Source: Streptomyces fagopyri (lineage in GTDB: Bacteria > Actinomycetota > Actinomycetes > Streptomycetales > Streptomycetaceae). Taken from it: 64,000 nt of DNA. The stretch's first letter is position 1, and each line of letters starts with the position of its first letter. Position numbers and translations under genes: made by a program. Positions 3,194 through 12,052 of this stretch are shown here, piece after piece. The stretch covers positions 4,898,001 through 4,962,000 of the forward strand of contig NZ_CP045643.1 in assembly GCF_009498275.1 (NCBI RefSeq), written 5' to 3'. The notes beneath the pieces are model-generated. The model saw nothing but the letters and a program-made list of their open reading frames with translations. It was not told the origin of the DNA and did no database searches.

Positions 3194-4558
3194 CTAAGGG
3201 GTGGCCCGCCACGTCCCCGCACCGGTGGACCTGCCGTCGTGCGCGACGGTCAGGGGGCCGCGCGGTCGGGCGATCCGCACCGGGGTGTGCGTGGCGGGCG
3301 CGGAGCCGGGGATGACCCCCTCGACGCGGCCCACGTGTGCGAACGCCGCCAGGACCCGCTCCAGTTGGCCGTCGGTGTGCGCGGCGGTGAGGGTGACCCG
3401 CAGTACCTCGCGGCCGGCCCTGACGACCGGGTGGACCATGGGCGCGGCGAACACCCCGGCGTCGAACAGCTCCCGCCACATCCGCATGCACCGCTCGCGC
3501 CCGGCCACCAGCACCGGCACCACCGGTGTGACCGACGCCCCGGTGTCGAAGCCGAGCGCGCGCAGTCCGTTGTGCAGCCGCTCGGCGAGGTCCAGGACCC
3601 GCGAGCGGCGTTCGGGTTCGGCGCGCAGGATCCGCAGCGCGGCCAGCGCGGCGGCGACGTTGGCCGGTGAGGCCGCCGCGGTGAACAGCGCCGTCCGCGC
3701 GTGGAACCGCAGATAGCGGATCACGTCGGCGGGGCCGGCGATCACCCCGCCCACCGAGGCCAGGCTCTTGGACAGGGCACTGGTGACGAGGTCGGGACGC
3801 AGCCCGAAGTGCTCACCGGCGCCCGCTCCGGTCGGGCCGAGCACCCCGAGGTCGTGGGAGCTGTCGACGACGACCCGCGCCCCGTGCGCGCCCGCCAGCT
3901 CCATGAGGCCCGGAAGATCGCAGACGTCCCCGTCCACCGAGAAGACCCCGTCCGTGAGGATCAGCTTTCCGCCGGTTCCGTTCCCGTCTCCTCCTGTTCT
4001 GTCTTTTCCGGTTCCGTCTCCTTCGTTTCCGTCCGCTTCTTTTCCGTTCCTGATTCCGTCGGCGGTGCGGAGCAATTCCTCCAGGTGATCAAGGTCGCCG
4101 TGCAGGAATTTGCGTTCTTTCGCCCTGCCGAGACGGACGGCCTCTTCCAGTGAAACATGATTGGAAAAGTCGCTGAATACCATGTCCCCGTCCCCGAGGA
4201 GCGGGGCCAGCATCAAATTCGCCTGATATCCGGAAGGGAGCACGGCGGCGGCCTCGTGGCCCAGGAACGCCGCCAGGCCGTGCTCCAGCTCCTCGTGCAG
4301 TTCCAGCGAGCCGCTCACCGCCCGGGACCCTCCCATCGAGGTGCCGAAGCGCCGTACCGCGGCGACGGCGGCCTCGCGCACCCGGGGTTCCGCGGAGAGT
4401 CCCAGATAGTCGTGGGAGGCCGCGACGATCACTCGGCGGCCCTCGAAATCGGCCTCCGTGCCGTCGAACGTATCGCCGATCGCCCGGAAGTAGCAGTCCC
4501 GTCCCGTCACCCGCAGATGCTCCGCGGTCCATGGCCGGCACTTTTCCAGAATATCCAT
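3194..4558 (-). CDS. PLP-dependent alpha-oxoamine synthase (AONS/SPT/KBL fold)
   Basis: A 454-residue fold-type I PLP enzyme of the group that condenses an amino acid with an acyl thioester, releasing CO2 (BioF, serine palmitoyltransferase, ALA synthase). Visible hallmarks are S-H-D-Y-L-G-L near residue 48, G-S-G-S-R-like R-A-V-S-G near 80, the D-x-x-H pair (Asp232, His235) before G-V-L-G-P-T-G, and the Schiff-base Lys264 in S-K-S-L-A-S-V-G-G. Residues about 168-197 are an extra Gly/Asp/Lys/Thr/Asn-rich loop absent from typical members. It diverges from an ACP-ketosynthase pair, suggesting an acyl-ACP donor. No biotin genes are nearby, so it is not called BioF. The ATG at 4558 has only a weak ribosome site. 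Confidence 0.85.
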   Translation of the reverse strand: MDILEKCRPWTAEHLRVTGRDCYFRAIGDTFDGTEADFEGRRVIVAASHDYLGLSAEPRVREAAVAAVRRFGTSMGGSRAVSGSLELHEELEHGLAAFLGHEAAAVLPSGYQANLMLAPLLGDGDMVFSDFSNHVSLEEAVRLGRAKERKFLHGDLDHLEELLRTADGIRNGKEADGNEGDGTGKDRTGGDGNGTGGKLILTDGVFSVDGDVCDLPGLMELAGAHGARVVVDSSHDLGVLGPTGAGAGEHFGLRPDLVTSALSKSLASVGGVIAGPADVIRYLRFHARTALFTAAASPANVAAALAALRILRAEPERRSRVLDLAERLHNGLRALGFDTGASVTPVVPVLVAGRERCMRMWRELFDAGVFAAPMVHPVVRAGREVLRVTLTAAHTDGQLERVLAAFAHVGRVEGVIPGSAPATHTPVRIARPRGPLTVAHDGRSTGAGTWRATP

Positions 4559-4591
4559 GCCTGCGTTCGCCCATCGCTCGCCTGTAGCATT

Positions 4592-4608
4592 AATTCTCTC
4601 GGAGAATT
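4592..4608. promoter_or_regulatory. Inverted repeat in the divergent promoter region
   Basis: AATTCTC (4592-4598) and GAGAATT (4602-4608) form a perfect 7-bp inverted repeat with a 3-nt spacer. It lies in the AT-richer 111-bp gap between the divergently transcribed oxoamine synthase and ACP genes, where an operator controlling both directions would be expected. No regulator gene is present beside it. Confidence 0.4.
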
Positions 4609-4669
4609 CGGTTCCGTTGGAGATGGTACTTTGAGGTGTCTGCCCTGCTATCCATGCGACGGAGAAAAA

Positions 4670-4888
4670 GTGTCATACGAAGAACTCAAAAGCGTTCTTG
4701 TTTCTCTTGGGCTTTCCGAGGATGACATCAGCCCGGACGCGACGCGCGAGGAAGCGGGACTGGATTCCATCGCCGTCGTCGAACTGGCCCTGGTCCTGCG
4801 CCGCGAGAAAGGGGTGGCGGTGACGGAGGAGGAGATCGGCGCCACCCTCACCGTCGCGGACGTGGCCGCCCTCGTCGGAGCCAGGTGA
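4670..4888 (+). CDS. Acyl carrier protein
   Basis: A 72-residue, acidic, four-helix ACP. The phosphopantetheine attachment site is Ser33 in G-L-D-S-I-A-V-V-E-L. The GTG start is fixed by a GGAG five nucleotides upstream and gives the usual ACP length. It ends 7 bp before the ketosynthase start, so the two are cotranscribed, and it diverges from the oxoamine synthase. It probably carries the acyl chain built by the ketosynthase and may present it to the oxoamine synthase. A role in general fatty acid synthesis is less likely because no FabD, FabH or FabG is next to it. Confidence 0.88.
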   Translation: MSYEELKSVLVSLGLSEDDISPDATREEAGLDSIAVVELALVLRREKGVAVTEEEIGATLTVADVAALVGAR

Positions 4889-4895
4889 CCTCCGT

Positions 4896-6116
4896 ATGAC
4901 CGGTCGACAGGACGTGTGCGTCACCGGCCTCGGACTCGTGACCCCGGCGGGAGACGGCTGGGCCCCCGGCTGGGAGCGGGTCTGCAAGGGGCTGCCGACC
5001 GCCGTACTGGCGGGGGAGCGGGAGACGGTCCCGCCGCACCTGGCCTGCCGGGTGGGCGGCTTCGACCCGGTCCGGCTGGGCGGGGCCCGCGCGCGCAGGC
5101 CCGACCGCTGCGCGCAACTGGCCCTGCTCGCCGCGCGGGAGGCACTGGCCGACGCCGGGCTGGACCCGGCACGGTGGGACGGCGCGCGCGTCGCCGTGAT
5201 CGTGGGCTCCGGCACCGGCGGTGCCCAGACCCTGGAGTCCGAGCACCGCGCGCTGCTGACGGCCGGCCCGCGGGACATGTCGCCGTACGCGGTGCCCGCC
5301 GCGCTGGGCAACTCCCTGGCCGCGCAGCTGACCATCGAGTTCGGTGCCTCCGGCGCCAGTTGTACGGTCAACACCGCCTGCGCGTCGGGTGCGACCGCCC
5401 TCGGCATGGCACGGGACCTGCTGGCCCTGGACCGGTGCGACATCGCGCTGGCCGGAGGCGCCGACGCCGCCATCACACCGTTCTACGTCGCCGGGTTCGA
5501 CCGGATCGGCGCGCTCTCCCACCGCTTCGGCGATCCCACCGGGGCGCCGCGCGCCTTCGACCGGGGGCGGGACGGCTTCGTCATCGGCGAGGGGGCCGGG
5601 ATGCTGGTCCTGGAGCGCGCCGCCGACGCGCGCGCCCGCGGCGCGCGGACCCGCGCCCGGATCCGGGGCTTCGGAGCCTCCTCGGACGCGCACCACGTGG
5701 TGCGTCCCCACCCGGACGGCACCGGCCTCGGCACGGCCGTCCGCGAGGCACTCGCGCAGGCGGGCGCGAGCGAACGGGACGTGACCCACGTCAACGCCCA
5801 CGGCACCGGGACCCCGGCCGGCGACCGGGCCGAGGCCGCGGCGCTGGCCGGGCTCTTCCCGCACCGGCCGCCGGTGACGTCCACCAAGCCGGTGACCGGG
5901 CACCTGCTCGGCGCGGCGGGCGCGGTGGAGGCGGCGTTCACCGTCCTCGCCGTCGAGCAGGGGCTCGTTCCGCCCACCGCCAACCTGGAGGAACCCGATC
6001 CGGCGATCGACCTCGACATCCCGACCGAGGTCCGCCCGGGAGGGCTAGGGCTGGCGCTCTCGCTGTCCATGGGCTTCGGCGGACAGAACGCCGTCCTGGC
6101 CGTCACTCCCGACTGA
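4896..6116 (+). CDS. Beta-ketoacyl-ACP synthase, FabF (KAS II) type
   Basis: A 406-residue condensing enzyme of normal KAS II length. The nucleophile is Cys162 in N-T-A-C-A-S-G; the decarboxylation residues are His302 in N-A-H-G-T-G-T and His336 in G-H-L-L-G-A-A-G, with Lys331 in S-T-K-P. This Cys-His-His set marks a decarboxylating FabF-like synthase rather than a KAS III or a chain-length-factor partner. The gene starts 7 bp after the ACP stop. Its 3' end overlaps the convergent SDR gene by 72 bp. It probably extends an acyl chain on the neighbouring ACP; chain length and starter cannot be read from the sequence. Confidence 0.9.
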   Translation: MTGRQDVCVTGLGLVTPAGDGWAPGWERVCKGLPTAVLAGERETVPPHLACRVGGFDPVRLGGARARRPDRCAQLALLAAREALADAGLDPARWDGARVAVIVGSGTGGAQTLESEHRALLTAGPRDMSPYAVPAALGNSLAAQLTIEFGASGASCTVNTACASGATALGMARDLLALDRCDIALAGGADAAITPFYVAGFDRIGALSHRFGDPTGAPRAFDRGRDGFVIGEGAGMLVLERAADARARGARTRARIRGFGASSDAHHVVRPHPDGTGLGTAVREALAQAGASERDVTHVNAHGTGTPAGDRAEAAALAGLFPHRPPVTSTKPVTGHLLGAAGAVEAAFTVLAVEQGLVPPTANLEEPDPAIDLDIPTEVRPGGLGLALSLSMGFGGQNAVLAVTPD

Positions 6117-6965
6117 CTCCCGCCCGCCGGGCCGCTGCTCCCCGATCCCGTACGACGGCCGTCGCGCCTCGTACGAGGTGAGGGTGAAGTCGTCGGCCAG
6201 GTGGGGCAGGGCGGCGACCCGGCGCGGGAGATGACGCAGCAGCGCGGCCAGCACTTTGTAGCGGACGCTGGGTACGCAGACGACGGGCGGGCGGCGCCGC
6301 AGGATCGCCCGCACCGCCCGCTCGGCGACGTACGGCGAGGCGAGCGTGAGCGACGGAGGGGACGGCGGGATACCGGCCCGCTCGTGGAACTCCGAGACGG
6401 TGTGCCCGAGCAGGAGGGCGGTCAGCGCCACCGGTGAGGTGCGGATGCGGCGCGTGTGGGCCAGCGACTCGGTCAGCGCCAGCGCGTACGCCTTGGAGGC
6501 GCTGTACGAGGTGCCCTGCCAGACCGGCGCGGTGGCGGCCACCGAGGAGACGTTCAGGATGCGTCCGCGGCCCCGGGCGAGCATCGCGGGCAGCGCCGCG
6601 TGGACGAGCCGGGAGGGAGCGACGACGTTGAGGGCGAGCATCCGCCGCTCCTCCTCCCACGTCGTGCGCTCGAAGGACAGGCCGAGTCCCGCACCGGCGT
6701 TGTTGACGAGGATGTCGGCGTCGCACGCGAGCGCGGCGGTCAGTTCCATGCCGGCCTCGGTGCTCAGGTCGGCGGCCAGCGGGCGGGCGCTGACCCCGTA
6801 CTCGGCTTCGAGGGCGCCCGCGAGCCGGTCCAGGGGTCCGGCGCTCCGGGCCACCAGGACGAGGTGGTGGCCGCGGGCGGCGAGGGCACGGGCGATGTCC
6901 GCGCCGATGCCGTAACTGGCGCCCGTGACCAGGGCTGTCGACCCTTCCGGACCGGTCGTGCTCAT
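6045..6965 (-). CDS. SDR-family NAD(P)-dependent oxidoreductase
   Basis: A 306-residue classical short-chain dehydrogenase/reductase. The cofactor loop T-G-A-S-Y-G-I-G is at residues 14-21, N-N-A-G at 88-91, the catalytic Ser near 140, and Y-S-A-S-K (Tyr154, Lys158) follows. It is about 45 residues longer than a typical FabG, with a C-terminal extension that runs over the 3' end of the ketosynthase gene. Its ATG overlaps the stop of the upstream acyltransferase (ATGA), so the two are coupled. In this setting it may reduce a 3-keto or aminoketone product, as ketosphinganine reductases do, but this is inference. Confidence 0.85.
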   Translation of the reverse strand: MSTTGPEGSTALVTGASYGIGADIARALAARGHHLVLVARSAGPLDRLAGALEAEYGVSARPLAADLSTEAGMELTAALACDADILVNNAGAGLGLSFERTTWEEERRMLALNVVAPSRLVHAALPAMLARGRGRILNVSSVAATAPVWQGTSYSASKAYALALTESLAHTRRIRTSPVALTALLLGHTVSEFHERAGIPPSPPSLTLASPYVAERAVRAILRRRPPVVCVPSVRYKVLAALLRHLPRRVAALPHLADDFTLTSYEARRPSYGIGEQRPGGRESVGSDGQDGVLSAEAHGQRERQP

Positions 6966-8413
6966 GAGTTCTCCCCGGGACGGGACGCGTGCGGATCTCT
7001 GTGACTGGCGTGACTGGCAGGGCTGGCAGGGGTGACGGGATCTGCGGAGACGAAGGGGGCGCCGGGGTTTCCCGGGCCGCCGGGATCGCCGGGGGCGTCG
7101 GGGGCGCCGGGGGCGACGGTGACCTCGCGCCACAGCCGCTCGACGGCATCGGCCCACAAGGCGGCGAGATCGCCGACGTCGTCCAGTGCCCGGTCGAGGG
7201 TGAAGCTCACCCGGACCTGCCCCTGGTACGAGAGGAACGACACCGCGAAGAAGTGGTCGCCGTGCAGGAACAGCGTGGGCACCACCCCCTCGACCGGATC
7301 CGCGCCGACCGCCAGCCGGCGGGGAAGGCGCAGCAGTCCGGAGGTGTCCACCGCGCTGCTCGCGGCGCAGGACTGCCGGACGAAGCGGTAGACGAGCCAC
7401 TCCGGAAGACACTCCAACTGCGCCCGCAGCACCCGGCGCATCCCCTCGGTCCTGACCCGGCGGGTCGCGCGGGCGACGGCGACCACCCGGTCGGCGGGGG
7501 ACTTCGCCCAGTAGGACAGCGGAATGCGGACGGCCGAGACCCTGTTGCCCACCGCGAACCGCTCCTCCGGCCTGCGGAGACTGACCGGCAGTCCCACGTG
7601 CAGCTCCCGGCCGGGCCCGGGGCCGGCCCCCCACTCCTCGGGCACCCAGTCCCGTACCGCCTCCGCCAGCGCGGCCAGGCAGACGTCGTTGGGCGTGGCC
7701 CCGAGGGCCTTCGCGACATCGCGGGGCCAGGACACCGGCACCGCCGCCGACAGGAGCCGCGTCCGGCCGGTGAGGGGGCGGTGCGGCGCCCAGGTCAGGG
7801 TGGACCGCAGGCCGCGTACGGTGTCGGCCGCGTTCTGCGCGATCGCCCGCGCCGGGATGTTCCTCACCCACGCGAGCGGGTCCCGGTTCCCGCCGGTGCC
7901 GCGGACGCCGGGTGCTTCGGCCACGGCCTGCCGGGGCGGAACGGCGGGCCCCACCCCGAACAGCGCCGTGAGCGCGTCCAGTACCGCCTGCCCGTCCTGG
8001 GCGGCGTGGTGCGCGCGGTAGAACAGCGCGTACGTGTCCGGGGAGTAGCCGTGGATGACCCAGACCCCCCAGCGTGGCGCGCCGGCGCTGATCGGTTCAC
8101 CGAGCAGGGCGTCCACGGCCCGGCCGAGCGAGGGCCGGCCGTCCTCCACGAGGATCTCGTGCACATGGCGGCGCGGGTCGAAACCGGGATCGAGCTCCCA
8201 GACCGTCCGGCGGCCGCGGCGGCCGACCTTGCAGGCGAGGCTCGGCATGCGGTCCACGCGGTCGGCGATCTGCTCGCGCACCGGGTCCGGACCCGGGCAG
8301 GAGCCGGCCACCTCCAGGACCGCCCCGACATAGGGCCGGAACCGGGGCTCGTCCCGCTCGTAGCTGAGGAAGCAGCCGTCGACCGCGTTGGGGCTGGGAA
8401 CCGTCGTGGTCAT
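6962..8413 (-). CDS. WS/DGAT-type acyltransferase (wax ester synthase/diacylglycerol acyltransferase family)
   Basis: A 483-residue protein with the active-site motif H-H-A-A-Q-D-G at residues 135-141, matching HHxxxDG of the WS/DGAT and condensation-domain superfamily. Length, the N-terminal segment and a V-G-N-R-V-S region in the second half fit WS/DGAT enzymes, which move acyl groups from CoA to an alcohol. The ATG at 8413 is chosen because homologous sequence begins there; an open extension to 8533 has no family character. The last 50 residues are a P-G-x repeated low-complexity tail. It is coupled to the downstream SDR by an ATGA overlap and probably acts on the product of this locus. 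Confidence 0.8.
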   Translation of the reverse strand: MTTTVPSPNAVDGCFLSYERDEPRFRPYVGAVLEVAGSCPGPDPVREQIADRVDRMPSLACKVGRRGRRTVWELDPGFDPRRHVHEILVEDGRPSLGRAVDALLGEPISAGAPRWGVWVIHGYSPDTYALFYRAHHAAQDGQAVLDALTALFGVGPAVPPRQAVAEAPGVRGTGGNRDPLAWVRNIPARAIAQNAADTVRGLRSTLTWAPHRPLTGRTRLLSAAVPVSWPRDVAKALGATPNDVCLAALAEAVRDWVPEEWGAGPGPGRELHVGLPVSLRRPEERFAVGNRVSAVRIPLSYWAKSPADRVVAVARATRRVRTEGMRRVLRAQLECLPEWLVYRFVRQSCAASSAVDTSGLLRLPRRLAVGADPVEGVVPTLFLHGDHFFAVSFLSYQGQVRVSFTLDRALDDVGDLAALWADAVERLWREVTVAPGAPDAPGDPGGPGNPGAPFVSADPVTPASPASHASHRDPHASRPGENS

Positions 8414-8561
8414 GGGCGCACCGCCGGACGCGGCCTGGTCATTGTCATGAGGACTTCCCTGGCACAGGTGGGCGGCGGGCAGAGTCGCTAACAGGGCACA
8501 CGGCGGAAAGGTCACGGCGTGCCCTGTGCGCACCCGCCGGTACCGGTCCCGCGCGGGCCGC

Positions 8562-8951
8562 TCAGAGGGGGCCGGGACGGTCCGTACCGGGGGCGGACCC
8601 GTCGGCGCAGTCCGCAGGGGCGGCGTCCGCCCGGCGCGCGAGGGGCAGGAAGAGGACCGGGCGGGCGGTCCAGGTGAGCCGGGTGGTCTCGTTGTCGACC
8701 GACACCGAACACGGTTCCGAACGCAGCAGCGCCTGTCTCATCTCGATGCGGCCGTCGTAGAGCCAGTCCCAGGCCTCGTCCGCCGCGGCGGGGCCGAGCG
8801 CCGGTGTGATGGTGCGCAGGGCGACCGCTATCCACCGGTCGGCCTGCGCGGCCGAGTGCGCGTGCATCGACGCGAGCAGCGCCGGTGGGCCGCCCGCGGC
8901 GAGGTCCTCGGTCCGGCACTCGCACCAGTAGCCGCGGACGGTTTCCTTCAT
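8562..8951 (-). CDS. Small protein of unknown function beside the acyltransferase
   Basis: A 129-residue protein starting at an ATG with an M-K-E-T-V-R-G-Y-W-C-E-C N-terminus. It is mixed alpha/beta, with a Cys pair at the start, a D-E-A-W-D-W-L-Y helix in the middle and a Val/Leu-rich strand near the end; no signal peptide or membrane segment is seen. I do not recognise the family. It lies 148 bp upstream of the acyltransferase on the same strand and may be the first gene of the acyltransferase-SDR unit. The open frame continues upstream to 9167, but the added stretch is Arg/Ala-rich and unlikely to be coding. Confidence 0.55.
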   Translation of the reverse strand: MKETVRGYWCECRTEDLAAGGPPALLASMHAHSAAQADRWIAVALRTITPALGPAAADEAWDWLYDGRIEMRQALLRSEPCSVSVDNETTRLTWTARPVLFLPLARRADAAPADCADGSAPGTDRPGPL

Positions 8952-9555: not shown

Positions 9556-10116
9556 GTGACCCACGCCGTGGAGCGCCCCGTCCTCTTCCTCGACGTCGAC
9601 GGCCCGCTCATCCCGTTCGGACCGTCCGCCGGCCGGCTTCAGGCTCCCGTTGCCGGTCCGGAGGAGCCCCCCGACGAGGGGAACCCGCTGCTCGGACGAC
9701 TCGACCGCGCCGTCGGCCCGCGTCTGTTGGCGCTCGGGTGCGACCTGGTCTGGGCCACGACATGGATGGAGGAGGCCAACGAGCACGTCGCCGCGCGGAT
9801 CGGGCTGCCCAGACTGCCTGTCGTGGAGTGGCCCGAGGCCTTTGCCGACGCGGGCCCGCGCGGCCTGCACTGGAAGACGCGCCCCCTGGTGGAGTGGGCC
9901 GGCCGCCGTCCCTTCATCTGGGTCGACGACGAGATCAGCGCCGTGGATCGGCTCTGGGTCGCCGCGCAGCATCCGGCACCGTCACTGCTTCACCGCGTCG
10001 ACCCGGCCGAGGGCCTCACCGAGCGCGATTTCTCCGCGCTCGCCCGCTGGCTGCGTACCGACCTGCCAGGACGGTCCCCCGGGGAGTCGCCCGGAGCCGA
10101 GGAGAGAACCGACTGA
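9556..10116 (+). CDS. HAD-like hydrolase domain protein
   Basis: A 186-residue protein with the HAD motif I D-V-D-G-P-L near its N-terminus and an acidic W-V-D-D-E segment (about residue 120) that may serve as the metal-binding motif IV. The family hydrolyses phosphate esters through an Asp nucleophile; the second Asp of DxD is present. It resembles a group of short actinobacterial HAD proteins of unknown substrate. The GTG start fits motif I at the N-terminus and a -10-like element 6 nt upstream. It stands alone, 73 bp before the left repeat of a decayed element, and marks the last intact chromosomal gene on that side. Confidence 0.75.
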   Translation: MTHAVERPVLFLDVDGPLIPFGPSAGRLQAPVAGPEEPPDEGNPLLGRLDRAVGPRLLALGCDLVWATTWMEEANEHVAARIGLPRLPVVEWPEAFADAGPRGLHWKTRPLVEWAGRRPFIWVDDEISAVDRLWVAAQHPAPSLLHRVDPAEGLTERDFSALARWLRTDLPGRSPGESPGAEERTD

Positions 10117-10189
10117 CACAAAAAACCGGACCGGCCGACACGACAACCGGCACGGATGAGATCCAGCGGGGCGGATTTACCAACAGCGT

Positions 10190-10222
10190 CCGCGAACGGT
10201 GGGGCCCTTCGAGTCGTGCCCG
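10190..10222 (+). repeat. Left 33-bp direct repeat (putative attL)
   Basis: This 33-bp sequence (core CGAACGGTGGGGCCCTTCGA) is repeated exactly at 12076-12108, next to the tRNA-Ser gene. The copies bound a 1.9-kb segment with an integrase remnant at its right end, the layout expected for an integrated element. The left copy lacks the complementary arm that makes the right copy a hairpin. Confidence 0.6.
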
Positions 10223-10439
10223 CGTCTCGCGGACGCCGTACCCGCGGGGACCGGAGAGGGCCGGGTCACGGCGTCAGTGCCGGTCCGGTCCCTTCGGGCG
10301 CGGACCGGCACACGCGGGGGGAATTCGATCACCCGCGTACCGGCCGCCTCGGGTGATCGTGCCGTGGAGCAGATCACGACAGCGATCGAGCGGCTTCTGG
10401 ACTGGTGGGCACGGTGTCCACAGTGGCGGAGCCGGCGGA

Positions 10440-11429
10440 TCACGGGCGGTGGAAGACGTGGAGCGCGCCGTACTCCGTCGCCTCGCTGCCGGCGAGTTCA
10501 GGGTGTTCGGGGACACGCTCCCGGAGGATGCCGATGGTGTCGGGCCACGTGGTGAACCGCGCTCCGGTGCCGGTGAGGACGCCGTCCCAGTCCTGGGCAG
10601 CTGAGACGCCGGTCCGGTCGATGACGAATCCACGGCACCCCGCCGCGTCCTGGTCGAGGATGCGCACCAGCGCCGCCACGGCCTCTTCGCGGTCGGGCTC
10701 GGGGATGTCGGCAATGCGCAGTGTGATGCTCTGCGTCGTCTCGTCCGTGCGTCGCACGATGCCGGTCAGGGACTGGTCGTAGCCCTTCCAGCAGGTGAAC
10801 TCGACTCGTGTGCAGCGGCTCTCGGCCAGAGCGGCGGCGAGGACGGCGCCGTCACCCATCAGGGGCTCGCGGGTGCCGGTTGGCGTCTCGCAGAACCCGA
10901 AGAGAGCCCCCGTCAGGGGGGGGACGGCGAAGAGCCCGGCGCTGTCCAGGTGCGCGAGGAGCCGATCGGCGGCGGCGCTGGTCAGCTTCGGCACGTACCA
11001 GGTGAAGAAGGCGGCGGACTTGGAGGAGACGGCGGTCGGGGCGCTGTCCGGGAACTCCTCCCGAAAGATCTGCCTCGCCCGTTCGTCGGATACGGCGGGG
11101 ACCGTGTAGCCGCCGGCCCGCATGTGGTCCAGGAACTCCTGAGGGAGGGAGACGTGGTGGCGGCGCACGTAGTGCATGAGGTCGATCGGCCAGATCCAGG
11201 TGCCGTCGGTCATCAGGGATTCGGAGCCCGCGATCCACTCGTCGTCGGTGAGAGCGTCACGCCGAGCGCCCATCGTGGTGTAGATCTCCCGAGCCGATTC
11301 CAGGTAGGCGAGGATGCGGTCCTCGTCCCAGGGTCCGCTGCTGCGTACGGCATCGCGCAGGGACGGCGCGCCGTCTGCGGCGGCGTCCGGGCCGCTGATC
11401 TCCTGGTAGAAGCCCGCTCGCTTGGTCAT
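10440..11429 (-). CDS. Immunity-like protein of unknown mechanism
   Basis: A 329-residue acidic cytosolic protein. The first 120 residues (R-A-G-F-Y-Q-E-I, then L-M-T-D-G-T-W-I-W-P-I-D-L and H-H-V-S-L-P-Q-E-F-L) resemble a domain I associate with actinobacterial proteins encoded beside polymorphic or type VII toxins. The second half repeats a similar alpha/beta pattern with F-F-T-W-Y-V-P-K and a hydrophobic C-terminus. The ATG at 11429 is preferred over the GTG at 11435 because an AGGAG lies five nucleotides before it. It sits inside the decayed element, just downstream of a toxin-like fragment. Function is inferred from context and vague resemblance, not from a catalytic motif. Confidence 0.5.
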   Translation of the reverse strand: MTKRAGFYQEISGPDAAADGAPSLRDAVRSSGPWDEDRILAYLESAREIYTTMGARRDALTDDEWIAGSESLMTDGTWIWPIDLMHYVRRHHVSLPQEFLDHMRAGGYTVPAVSDERARQIFREEFPDSAPTAVSSKSAAFFTWYVPKLTSAAADRLLAHLDSAGLFAVPPLTGALFGFCETPTGTREPLMGDGAVLAAALAESRCTRVEFTCWKGYDQSLTGIVRRTDETTQSITLRIADIPEPDREEAVAALVRILDQDAAGCRGFVIDRTGVSAAQDWDGVLTGTGARFTTWPDTIGILRERVPEHPELAGSEATEYGALHVFHRP

Positions 11430-11459
11430 TTTCACTCCTGTGAGCCTGCCGCTAGTGGG

Positions 11460-11603
11460 TCATGGGCCGGTCACGCCCAGGGTGGCGGCGATCTCCACGA
11501 CGCTTGCGGTCGCCGCAGCGGCCGCGGCCTCGGAGATGCCGGCGGTGAAGATGGCCAAGGCCGTGCCGGCCACGACGGTGGCGCCGACGATCTCCAGTTC
11601 GTG
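11460..11603 (-). pseudogene. Toxin-like hydrophobic fragment upstream of the immunity-like gene
   Basis: This stretch encodes an Ala/Val/Ile-rich segment (E-I-V-G-A-T-V-V-A-G-T-A-L, then a run of alternating Ala and small residues, ending A-T-L-G-V-T-G-P and a stop) like the hydrophobic region before the toxic domain of WXG100-type polymorphic toxins. The rest of such a protein is missing on both sides. It is read on the same strand as, and 31 bp upstream of, the immunity-like gene. It may be a toxin remnant; the similarity is compositional and weak. Confidence 0.3.
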
Positions 11604-11608
11604 AGGGG

Positions 11609-12052
11609 GTGGCCGTTGGCACGCGCGAGTTCCGATGGGCCGCACGGGCAACGGAGAGCCCTGCTGTCGCCGAGACGCAGGCGCGTGAGCGCACGGCGGC
11701 CGGCGACCTGTGGGGCGGGTCGGGCTACGTGTTCACCAAGCCGCTGGGTGGCCCGCCGAGTCCGAACACGGACCATGCGCGACCGGAAGCGGCCGCTGGA
11801 GGACGCGGGGGTTCTGCCCGCTCGGCTGTATGACGCGCGTCACACGGCCGCGCCGTGCTCGTGCCGCCCGGTGTCCCGGCTCGTGTCATTGATCGGACCA
11901 TGGGGTGGGAACCGGGTGCCTCCGCGAGCACGCGGGCGCGGTACCCGCATGTGCGGGACGCCGCGCTCAAGGACATGGCCCGGAAGATCGCCGAGGCCAT
12001 CCGGTGGCCCCCGGGAAGCGCCCTTCGTGGACAAAAAACAGGACGGTGAGGG
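11609..12052 (+). pseudogene. Tyrosine recombinase (integrase) remnant, frameshifted
   Basis: The C-terminal catalytic half of a phage-type integrase can be read in pieces across two frames. A-A-G-D-L-W-G-G-S-G-Y-V-F and P-N-T-D-H are in one frame; P-A-R-L-Y-D-A-R-H-T-A-A (the R-H-x-x-A box) is in another; and D-R-T-M-G-W-E-P followed by R-Y-P-H-V, with the nucleophile Tyr, returns to the first frame. At least two frameshifts (near 11770 and 11850) and the missing N-terminal half make it inactive. It stops 24 bp before the right 33-bp repeat, as integrase genes usually abut their att site. Confidence 0.75.

Follow-up and report, generated by a model that had tools for sequence, protein, structure and literature searches.

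A 64,000-nucleotide stretch of the Streptomyces fagopyri genome (contig NZ_CP045643.1, positions 4,898,001 to 4,962,000; the whole stretch is called the window below) carries a compact set of five genes. They encode a pyridoxal phosphate (PLP)-dependent alpha-oxoamine synthase (OAS), an acyl carrier protein (ACP), a FabF/KAS II-like ketosynthase (KS), a classical short-chain dehydrogenase/reductase (SDR) and an acyltransferase of the WS/DGAT type (Table 1). The genome (G000) consists of one contig of 8.88 Mb. All five window proteins scored above the respective Pfam cut-offs. The OAS and ACP genes are divergent, the KS gene follows the ACP gene after 7 bp, the convergent KS and SDR genes share 72 bp at their 3' ends, and the WS/DGAT and SDR genes overlap by 4 bp. 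The same 72-bp overlap was present in the called open reading frames (ORFs) of two related loci, L126 and L127. An original prediction made from the sequence had placed five enzymes of a short lipid pathway in the interval 3194..8951. All five are present there, but the interval also includes an unrelated ORF of 129 aa. The residues Asp232, His235 and Lys264 of the OAS and the HHxxxDG motif of the acyltransferase, which had been named at the same time, were all found in place.

Table 1. Features of the five-gene locus and its flanks, in window coordinates.
Feature	Position	Strand	Evidence or remark
SPT-lineage PLP alpha-oxoamine synthase (OAS), 454 aa (lineage assigned by phylogeny)	3194..4558	-	PF00155 Aminotran_1_2, 149 bits; trees; active-site columns
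Divergent intergenic region OAS/ACP, 111 bp	4559..4669	.	holds ATTCTC-TCG-GAGAAT inverted repeat, spotted by eye
Acyl carrier protein (ACP), 72 aa, GTG start	4670..4888	+	PF00550 PP-binding, 37 bits; Ser33 in GLDSI
FabF/KAS II-like ketosynthase (KS), 406 aa	4896..6116	+	ketoacyl-synt N 158 bits, C 122 bits
Classical SDR, 306 aa	6045..6965	-	PF00106 adh_short, 122 bits
Divergent WS/DGAT-type acyltransferase, 483 aa	6962..8413	-	PF03007 WS_DGAT_cat 57 bits, PF06974 WS_DGAT_C 35 bits
Candidate conserved motif GGAAA(A)GGTCACG	8505..8516	+	upstream of WS/DGAT gene; 12-base form in the window

By phylogeny, the OAS is assigned to the serine palmitoyltransferase (SPT) lineage and not to BioF, KBL or the prodiginine-type enzymes. 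We calculated two maximum-likelihood trees, the first with 77 rows, two of which (L128 and L138) were mis-framed, and the second with 72 rows, in which these two were replaced, 24 others (near-duplicates, fragments and long branches, including RedL) were taken out and 19 were added. The main groups were the same in both. The OAS of the window fell within a superclade that also contained every SPT reference (support 99/95 in the first tree and 95/97 in the second), its own clade was supported by 100/100, and in the second tree it was part of an actinobacterial clade (100/99) beside Myxococcota sequences. It stood apart from BioF, KBL and RedN in both trees and from RedL in the first. The RedN and RedL rows came from a prodiginine-like cluster of G060, their identity being inferred from gene content; genes of prodiginine clusters are named RedN/RedL, RedQ, RedR and RedK. 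The position beside Myxococcota fits the division of SPTs into two subgroups, one of which comprises the enzymes of the Bacteroidetes and Myxococcus type (PMC9386255).

Comparison with solved structures and curated models agreed with the trees in separating the OAS from BioF and KBL. Its closest solved chains were those of Sphingobacterium multivorum SPT (3a2b/8guh, 261 bits), followed by a chain named BioF/KBL (227 bits), the best KBL (187 bits) and the best chain named only BioF (171 bits). The nearest named relative was from S. fagopyri (97% identical). The OAS stayed under the cut-off of all curated models that it matched, including those for bioF (317/426 bits), glycine C-acetyltransferase (277/460 and 240/493 bits), ALAS and autoinducer synthases. 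The same genome has two other OAS-family genes; in the trees, one was the partner of E. coli KBL and the other paired with E. coli BioF on long branches. A BioF or KBL function was rejected on the basis of the curated models, the trees and these separate genes; a firm grouping with either enzyme, which would have spoken against the original prediction, was thus not found. In the window and in P0001-P0007 the OAS contains a long hypervariable insertion rich in Gly, Asp, Asn, Thr and Lys (window ~3971-4057, residues ~168-196), which the remaining clade sequences in the alignment have in a short form or lack.

We then analyzed the surroundings of OAS genes for bacterial ceramide genes by six-frame searches of the loci, using as references the E. 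coli BL21 genes yghO/aca, aasR, epi, acpR and spt, with roles as given in PMC9386255. Among 80 related OAS loci, which are the best 80 of a longer list of matches, a homologue of the ceramide N-acyltransferase BcerS was present within 3 kb of the OAS in 47 and the reductase CerR in 29; 26 loci had both and 30 neither, and some of the loci without a hit are truncated by contig ends. The similarity to sphingoid synthesis noted by the original prediction stood as far as the SPT grouping is concerned, but the prediction had missed this known bacterial ceramide lineage, in which OAS genes often lie beside BcerS and CerR. Three layouts were distinguished in the Streptomycetaceae. In type A (L129-L135, L137, L139-L141), the OAS is accompanied by BcerS and, save for L140 and L141, also by CerR. 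Type B (L128, L138 and L142, from G391, G043 and G214, respectively) has OAS, BcerS and CerR and in addition a KS, an ACP and an HHxxxDG acyltransferase; here the distance of KS and ACP from the OAS is at most 5 kb. Type C, formed by the window and L124-L127, has a classical SDR and lacks both BcerS and CerR.

The absence of BcerS from type C extends to the whole genomes. A genome-wide protein search covered 16 genomes, namely 10 of the 14 fetched type A/B genomes, the five type-C genomes (G000, G108, G090, G534, G546) and G120. BcerS was found in 10/10 of the type A/B sister genomes tested (E ≤ 1e-5), and the other four show BcerS beside the OAS, whereas no match at E ≤ 1e-5 was obtained anywhere in the five type-C genomes or in G120. 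A CerR/Epi-type reductase was absent from the window's first 20 kb; no genome-wide search was made for it. A classical SDR near the OAS occurred in 10 of the 33 loci without BcerS versus 1 of the 47 with BcerS (Fisher p 0.0004, uncorrected for relatedness), one of the 10 (L031) being the cluster described here. For the window and L124-L142 the corresponding counts were 6/6 (the SDR of L124 is decayed) versus 0/14. The sixth locus is L136 of G120, whose OAS forms a separate lineage near type B and has a KS and a classical SDR nearby, so that a missing BcerS goes together with an SDR of the classical type close to the OAS in two separate OAS lineages, that of the window and that of G120.

Several other loci in this comparison deserve mention in their own right. 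Loci L128, L138 and L142 are candidates for the synthesis of O-acylated or unusual-chain ceramides, judging from their gene content. PapA/condensation-type acyltransferases lie near some type-A OAS genes (L129 11272-12621, L137 6455-7963), and HHxxxDG-superfamily acyltransferases thus recur with this OAS family. In L106 of Streptomyces roseolilacinus (10001-11993), a different SPT-like OAS, grouping with Chloroflexota, lies directly before an SDR gene whose product shares 47% identity with the SDR of the window, making it another candidate amino-lipid locus. SPT-like OAS genes near a classical SDR and with no BcerS within 2.5 kb were also found in Chloroflexota (L049, L051, L055, L060, L067), Bipolaricaulota (L084) and Spirochaetota (L085, L093); these loci are possibly unstudied amino-lipid or sphingoid-base loci. 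Small ORFs by the sister OAS genes were considered as ACPs and dropped, as they have no Pfam match and lie inside or beside BcerS frames.

Within the active site, the OAS combines conserved and altered positions. It retains His134, Asp232, His235 and Lys264, corresponding to His138, Asp210, His213 and Lys244 of Sphingobacterium SPT, as well as the C-terminal Arg387, a PLP/substrate residue in SPT. The positions of Asn52, Ala212 and Thr241 are changed to His49, Ser234 and Ala261. In the Sphingobacterium enzyme, the L-serine carboxylate is held by His138, which also stacks on PLP, while Lys244 forms the Schiff base and Asp210 and His213 bind PLP. Of the residues at the three changed positions, Ala212 is packed against PLP, Thr241 touches its phosphate and Asn52 contacts the serine hydroxyl via water (PMC10196870). 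We aligned 182 sequences, 34 from the clade of the window (the five loci and P0001-P0029; all 34 strings differ, though in some cases a locus and a P row represent one protein) and 148 others. His/Ser/Ala was present in 34/34 clade sequences and Asn/Ala/Thr in 138/148 outside. The 10 exceptions were two KBLs (Ser at 212), the proteobacterial SPT 2x8u (Tyr at 52), L065 (Ala at 241) and six P rows, of which P0030 and P0034 are fragments belonging to the clade itself and the other four are P0087, P0089, P0106 and P0113. L065, from Nonomuraea candida, has no BcerS nearby and represents a lineage that may have changed chemistry.

Since the type-A, type-B, myxobacterial and Chloroflexota-type rows and the nearest outgroup P0044 all keep Asn/Ala/Thr, the three changes are tied to the clade that lacks BcerS; the OAS of G120 likewise has Asn/Ala/Thr. 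The altered pocket probably reflects a changed amino-acid specificity. The sphingoid-base logic of the original prediction holds for the SPT lineage of the OAS, but because of the three fixed changes the term may be wrong with respect to the amino acid, which may differ from serine.

To determine how far the five genes are conserved as a set, relatives of the OAS were searched for at E ≤ 1e-66 in 392 Streptomyces genomes, 13 of which had a match, and in a search of 200 genomes of the family, 10 of which had one. Only three of the 13 (G000, G090, G108) and three of the 10 (G000, G534, G546) belonged to the clade of the window, so the cluster is rare and patchy. The corresponding loci are L124 (G108), L125 (G090), L126 (G534, Kitasatospora sp. 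GAS204B, with the same OAS protein as L031) and L127 (G546). In four of the five clade genomes (the window, L124, L126 and L127) the set was kept in the same order and orientation. The intact proteins of the latter three loci are 60-78% identical to those of the window, with values of 73-74% for the OAS, 72-74% for the ACP, which lies between KS and OAS in all three, 71-78% for the KS, 68-69% for the SDR (L126, L127) and 60-61% for the WS/DGAT protein. L124 contains a second WS/DGAT gene across the OAS from the first. The proposal that the five genes act together, for which a gene-neighbourhood analysis had been suggested, is thus supported by their co-inheritance, with order and orientation unchanged, in three further genomes.

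The remaining four proteins possess the catalytic residues expected for their families. The KS has Cys162, His302 and His336, the SDR Ser141, Tyr154 and Lys158, the ACP the phosphopantetheine serine Ser33, and the acyltransferase the motif HHAAQDG at residues 135-141 (His135-His136...Asp140-Gly141), whose HH...DG is invariant in eight aligned homologues. The KS passed the NCBIfam model NF005589 for a KAS II subfamily (394.7 bits, cut-off 387) and was below the cut-off of the fabF equivalog TIGR03150 (399/494 bits). Its sequence identity rises from 42% with the housekeeping FabF through 49% with a second KS of its own genome to 53% with a RedR-like KS. A tree of 14 rows united the type-C KS, the type-B KS and RedR in one clade (100/99) apart from housekeeping FabF. 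Within it, the type-B KS is closer to RedR (93/93) than the type-C KS is and belongs to a different subclade from that of the window, which suggests, as far as the tree goes, that a KS was recruited separately in types B and C.

The acyltransferase (ACYLTRANSFERASE) resembles bacterial WS/DGAT enzymes in having both Pfam domains and the HHxxxDG motif, but it differs in falling far under the wax/TAG synthase model TIGR02946 (147 vs 310 bits). The window genome has one other, separate WS/DGAT protein with a higher score. WS/DGAT-like proteins were common (14 of the 16 genomes at E ≤ 1e-5), and proteins with at least 56% identity to that of the window were restricted to G000, G108, G534 and G546. 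G120 had no genome-wide match at 1e-5; a weak match beside its OAS (28.7%, E 2e-11 in a small database) contains HHxxxDG and was treated as a putative distant member of the family.

Taken together, we consider it fairly probable that the cluster encodes a specialised, SPT-derived amino-lipid pathway which uses acyl-ACP and descends from bacterial ceramide synthesis, with the SDR and the WS/DGAT enzyme replacing CerR and BcerS. Reactions, substrates, step order and product are predicted from the genes. Primary type II fatty acid synthesis and the dedicated KAS II and ACP would supply acyl-ACP with a selected chain. The OAS, being of SPT descent, would condense it with an amino acid, maybe no longer serine, and with loss of CO2 yield a 2-amino-3-ketone. 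The classical SDR would reduce the ketone in place of CerR, like the eukaryotic 3-ketosphinganine reductase, and the WS/DGAT-type enzyme would acylate the amine or hydroxyl in place of BcerS. Use of acyl-ACP has a precedent in Caulobacter SPT, for which acyl-AcpR is the preferred substrate (PMC9386255).

The bacterial ceramide pathway of Caulobacter and E. coli BL21 (Spt, BcerS/Aca, CerR/Epi, AcpR, AasR) has in common with the cluster an SPT-lineage OAS adjoined by a dedicated ACP, and in both the locus also encodes a ketone reductase and an acyltransferase. In contrast to it, the window genome has no BcerS match and no CerR beside the OAS, using a classical SDR and a WS/DGAT protein instead; a KS occupies the place of the acyl-ACP synthetase AasR; and three active-site residues of the OAS are changed. 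The type-B loci share the OAS with nearby KS, ACP and HHxxxDG acyltransferase (the latter match being weak in L138), but keep BcerS, CerR and an OAS with Asn/Ala/Thr and lack the classical SDR. Another related system is the SgaAB(C) cluster of Pseudomonas, where, according to PMC12134224, an SPT fed by a polyketide synthase (PKS) makes sphingolipids and an SDR was proposed as ketosphinganine reductase. There too a specialised acyl chain is delivered to an SPT-type OAS, but by a type I iterative PKS and with serine shown as substrate, whereas the window has a single KAS II, an ACP and a WS/DGAT protein.

Several observations weigh against this interpretation. The OAS does not reach the cut-off of any NCBIfam SPT model (313/640, 283/500 and 214/670 bits), one of which a Roseomonas SPT passes (613/500 bits), and the best NCBIfam model for the SDR is that of mycolate reductase and not KDSR (135 bits, cut-off 380). 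Within 10 kb, G090 has no more of the set than a tandem SDR-OAS pair, its best WS/DGAT-like protein, encoded elsewhere, being only 32% identical; KS, ACP and WS/DGAT are therefore not always needed. In G108, the SDR gene is decayed (12263-12763 of L124, with shifted frames and missing pieces) next to intact OAS, ACP and KS frames, and reduction may therefore be dispensable or done elsewhere, or the cluster may be decaying. A cytochrome P450 gene lies beside the WS/DGAT gene in three of the four clusters, while the window has no match to it. Finally, 33 of the 80 related loci have no nearby BcerS, and in 23 of these a classical SDR is missing as well, partly because of contig ends, and the comparison of SDR with BcerS ignores the relatedness of the loci.

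Ordinary (dihydro)ceramide could also be made by such non-orthologous parts, with the OAS acting as SPT, the SDR reducing 3-ketosphinganine and the WS/DGAT enzyme N-acylating the product. The SPT ancestry in both trees, the retained PLP residues and carboxylate-holding His, and the occurrence of the classical SDR in Streptomycetaceae loci exactly where BcerS and CerR are missing are consistent with this, as is the similar SDR step proposed for the Pseudomonas cluster (PMC12134224). We nevertheless regard it as unlikely, as three positions nearly constant in SPT relatives are changed and fixed, among them that of Asn52, the residue in contact with the serine hydroxyl via water (PMC10196870). 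WS/DGAT enzymes, moreover, mostly make esters.

Quite improbable in our view is a dissociated prodiginine-type chemistry. As in the prodiginine route, the KS would form a beta-ketoacyl-ACP and the OAS would use an amino acid to release it; the resulting aminodiketone would cyclise to a 2-alkyl pyrrolinone or pyrrole, tailored by the SDR and the WS/DGAT enzyme. The KS and ACP genes are adjacent, the KS groups with the RedR-like and type-B KS, KS and ACP are 53% and 35% identical to those of the prodiginine-like cluster L143, and the SDR aside no ketoreductase or dehydratase is found among the five genes. However, the OAS lies in a different clade, outside the RedN and RedL of the G060 cluster, there is no KAS III or RedK-type reductase among the five genes (the SDR is classical, the reductase of the prodiginine-like cluster is of the extended epimerase type), and RedR is the chain-elongation KS and not that of RedL. 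That the genes lie side by side but serve no common pathway, with the OAS as a free-standing enzyme, as the SDR-OAS pair of G090 and the decayed SDR of G108 might suggest, is very improbable given the five-gene order and orientation common to Streptomyces and Kitasatospora at 60-78% identity and the KS and ACP near the OAS in type B too.

The inverted repeat between OAS and ACP was not seen by eye in the intergenic regions of relatives inspected. The motif GGAAA(A)GGTCACG occurs in one copy each near the WS/DGAT gene of the window, L124 (14326), L126 (14292) and L127 (5420), and is possibly a shared regulatory site; none was found in L125, and the 13-base form with one mismatch allowed was absent from the window. 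The ORF at 8562-8951 matched no Pfam or NCBIfam family. Its product is a hypothetical protein widespread in Streptomyces (376 of 478 candidates matched at E ≤ 1e-5) but without a significant match in 26 related loci searched (best E 0.25), and it was rejected as a pathway member; the enzyme set stops at 8413. A comparison of insertion points showed CopCD-like proteins in other Streptomyces, in G009 adjoining the same GNAT gene, and no clean empty site.

With respect to novelty, ceramide has reportedly been obtained from a Streptomyces in the 2022 work of Stankeviciute and colleagues on bacterial ceramide genes. The type-A layout is not new, because PMC12134224 cites ceramide genes found earlier in some Actinobacteria. 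The type-C variant appears to be the undescribed part. The original prediction had recognised no characterised Streptomyces product for the gene set, and we likewise did not find the set among the matches listed in open-access PMC, which holds few of the subscription papers.

The comparison suggests that in this lineage the ceramide pathway was dismantled and rebuilt, the first enzyme being kept but altered and the reductase and acyltransferase being drawn from other families. With other later enzymes and an altered OAS active site, the product is therefore probably an amino-lipid not yet described. More specifically, and with somewhat less than even confidence, we propose that an SPT with switched amino acid (His49/Ser234/Ala261), its own KAS II and ACP and a WS/DGAT cap (ester or amide) would make neither sphinganine nor ceramide but a separate actinobacterial class of amino-lipids. 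The predictions are thereby sharpened to the amino acid that suits the changed pocket and to the ability of a WS/DGAT enzyme to turn a sphingoid-type amine into an amide or ester. If true, this would mean a new lipid class for Streptomyces and a natural set of mutations for shifting the specificity of SPT.

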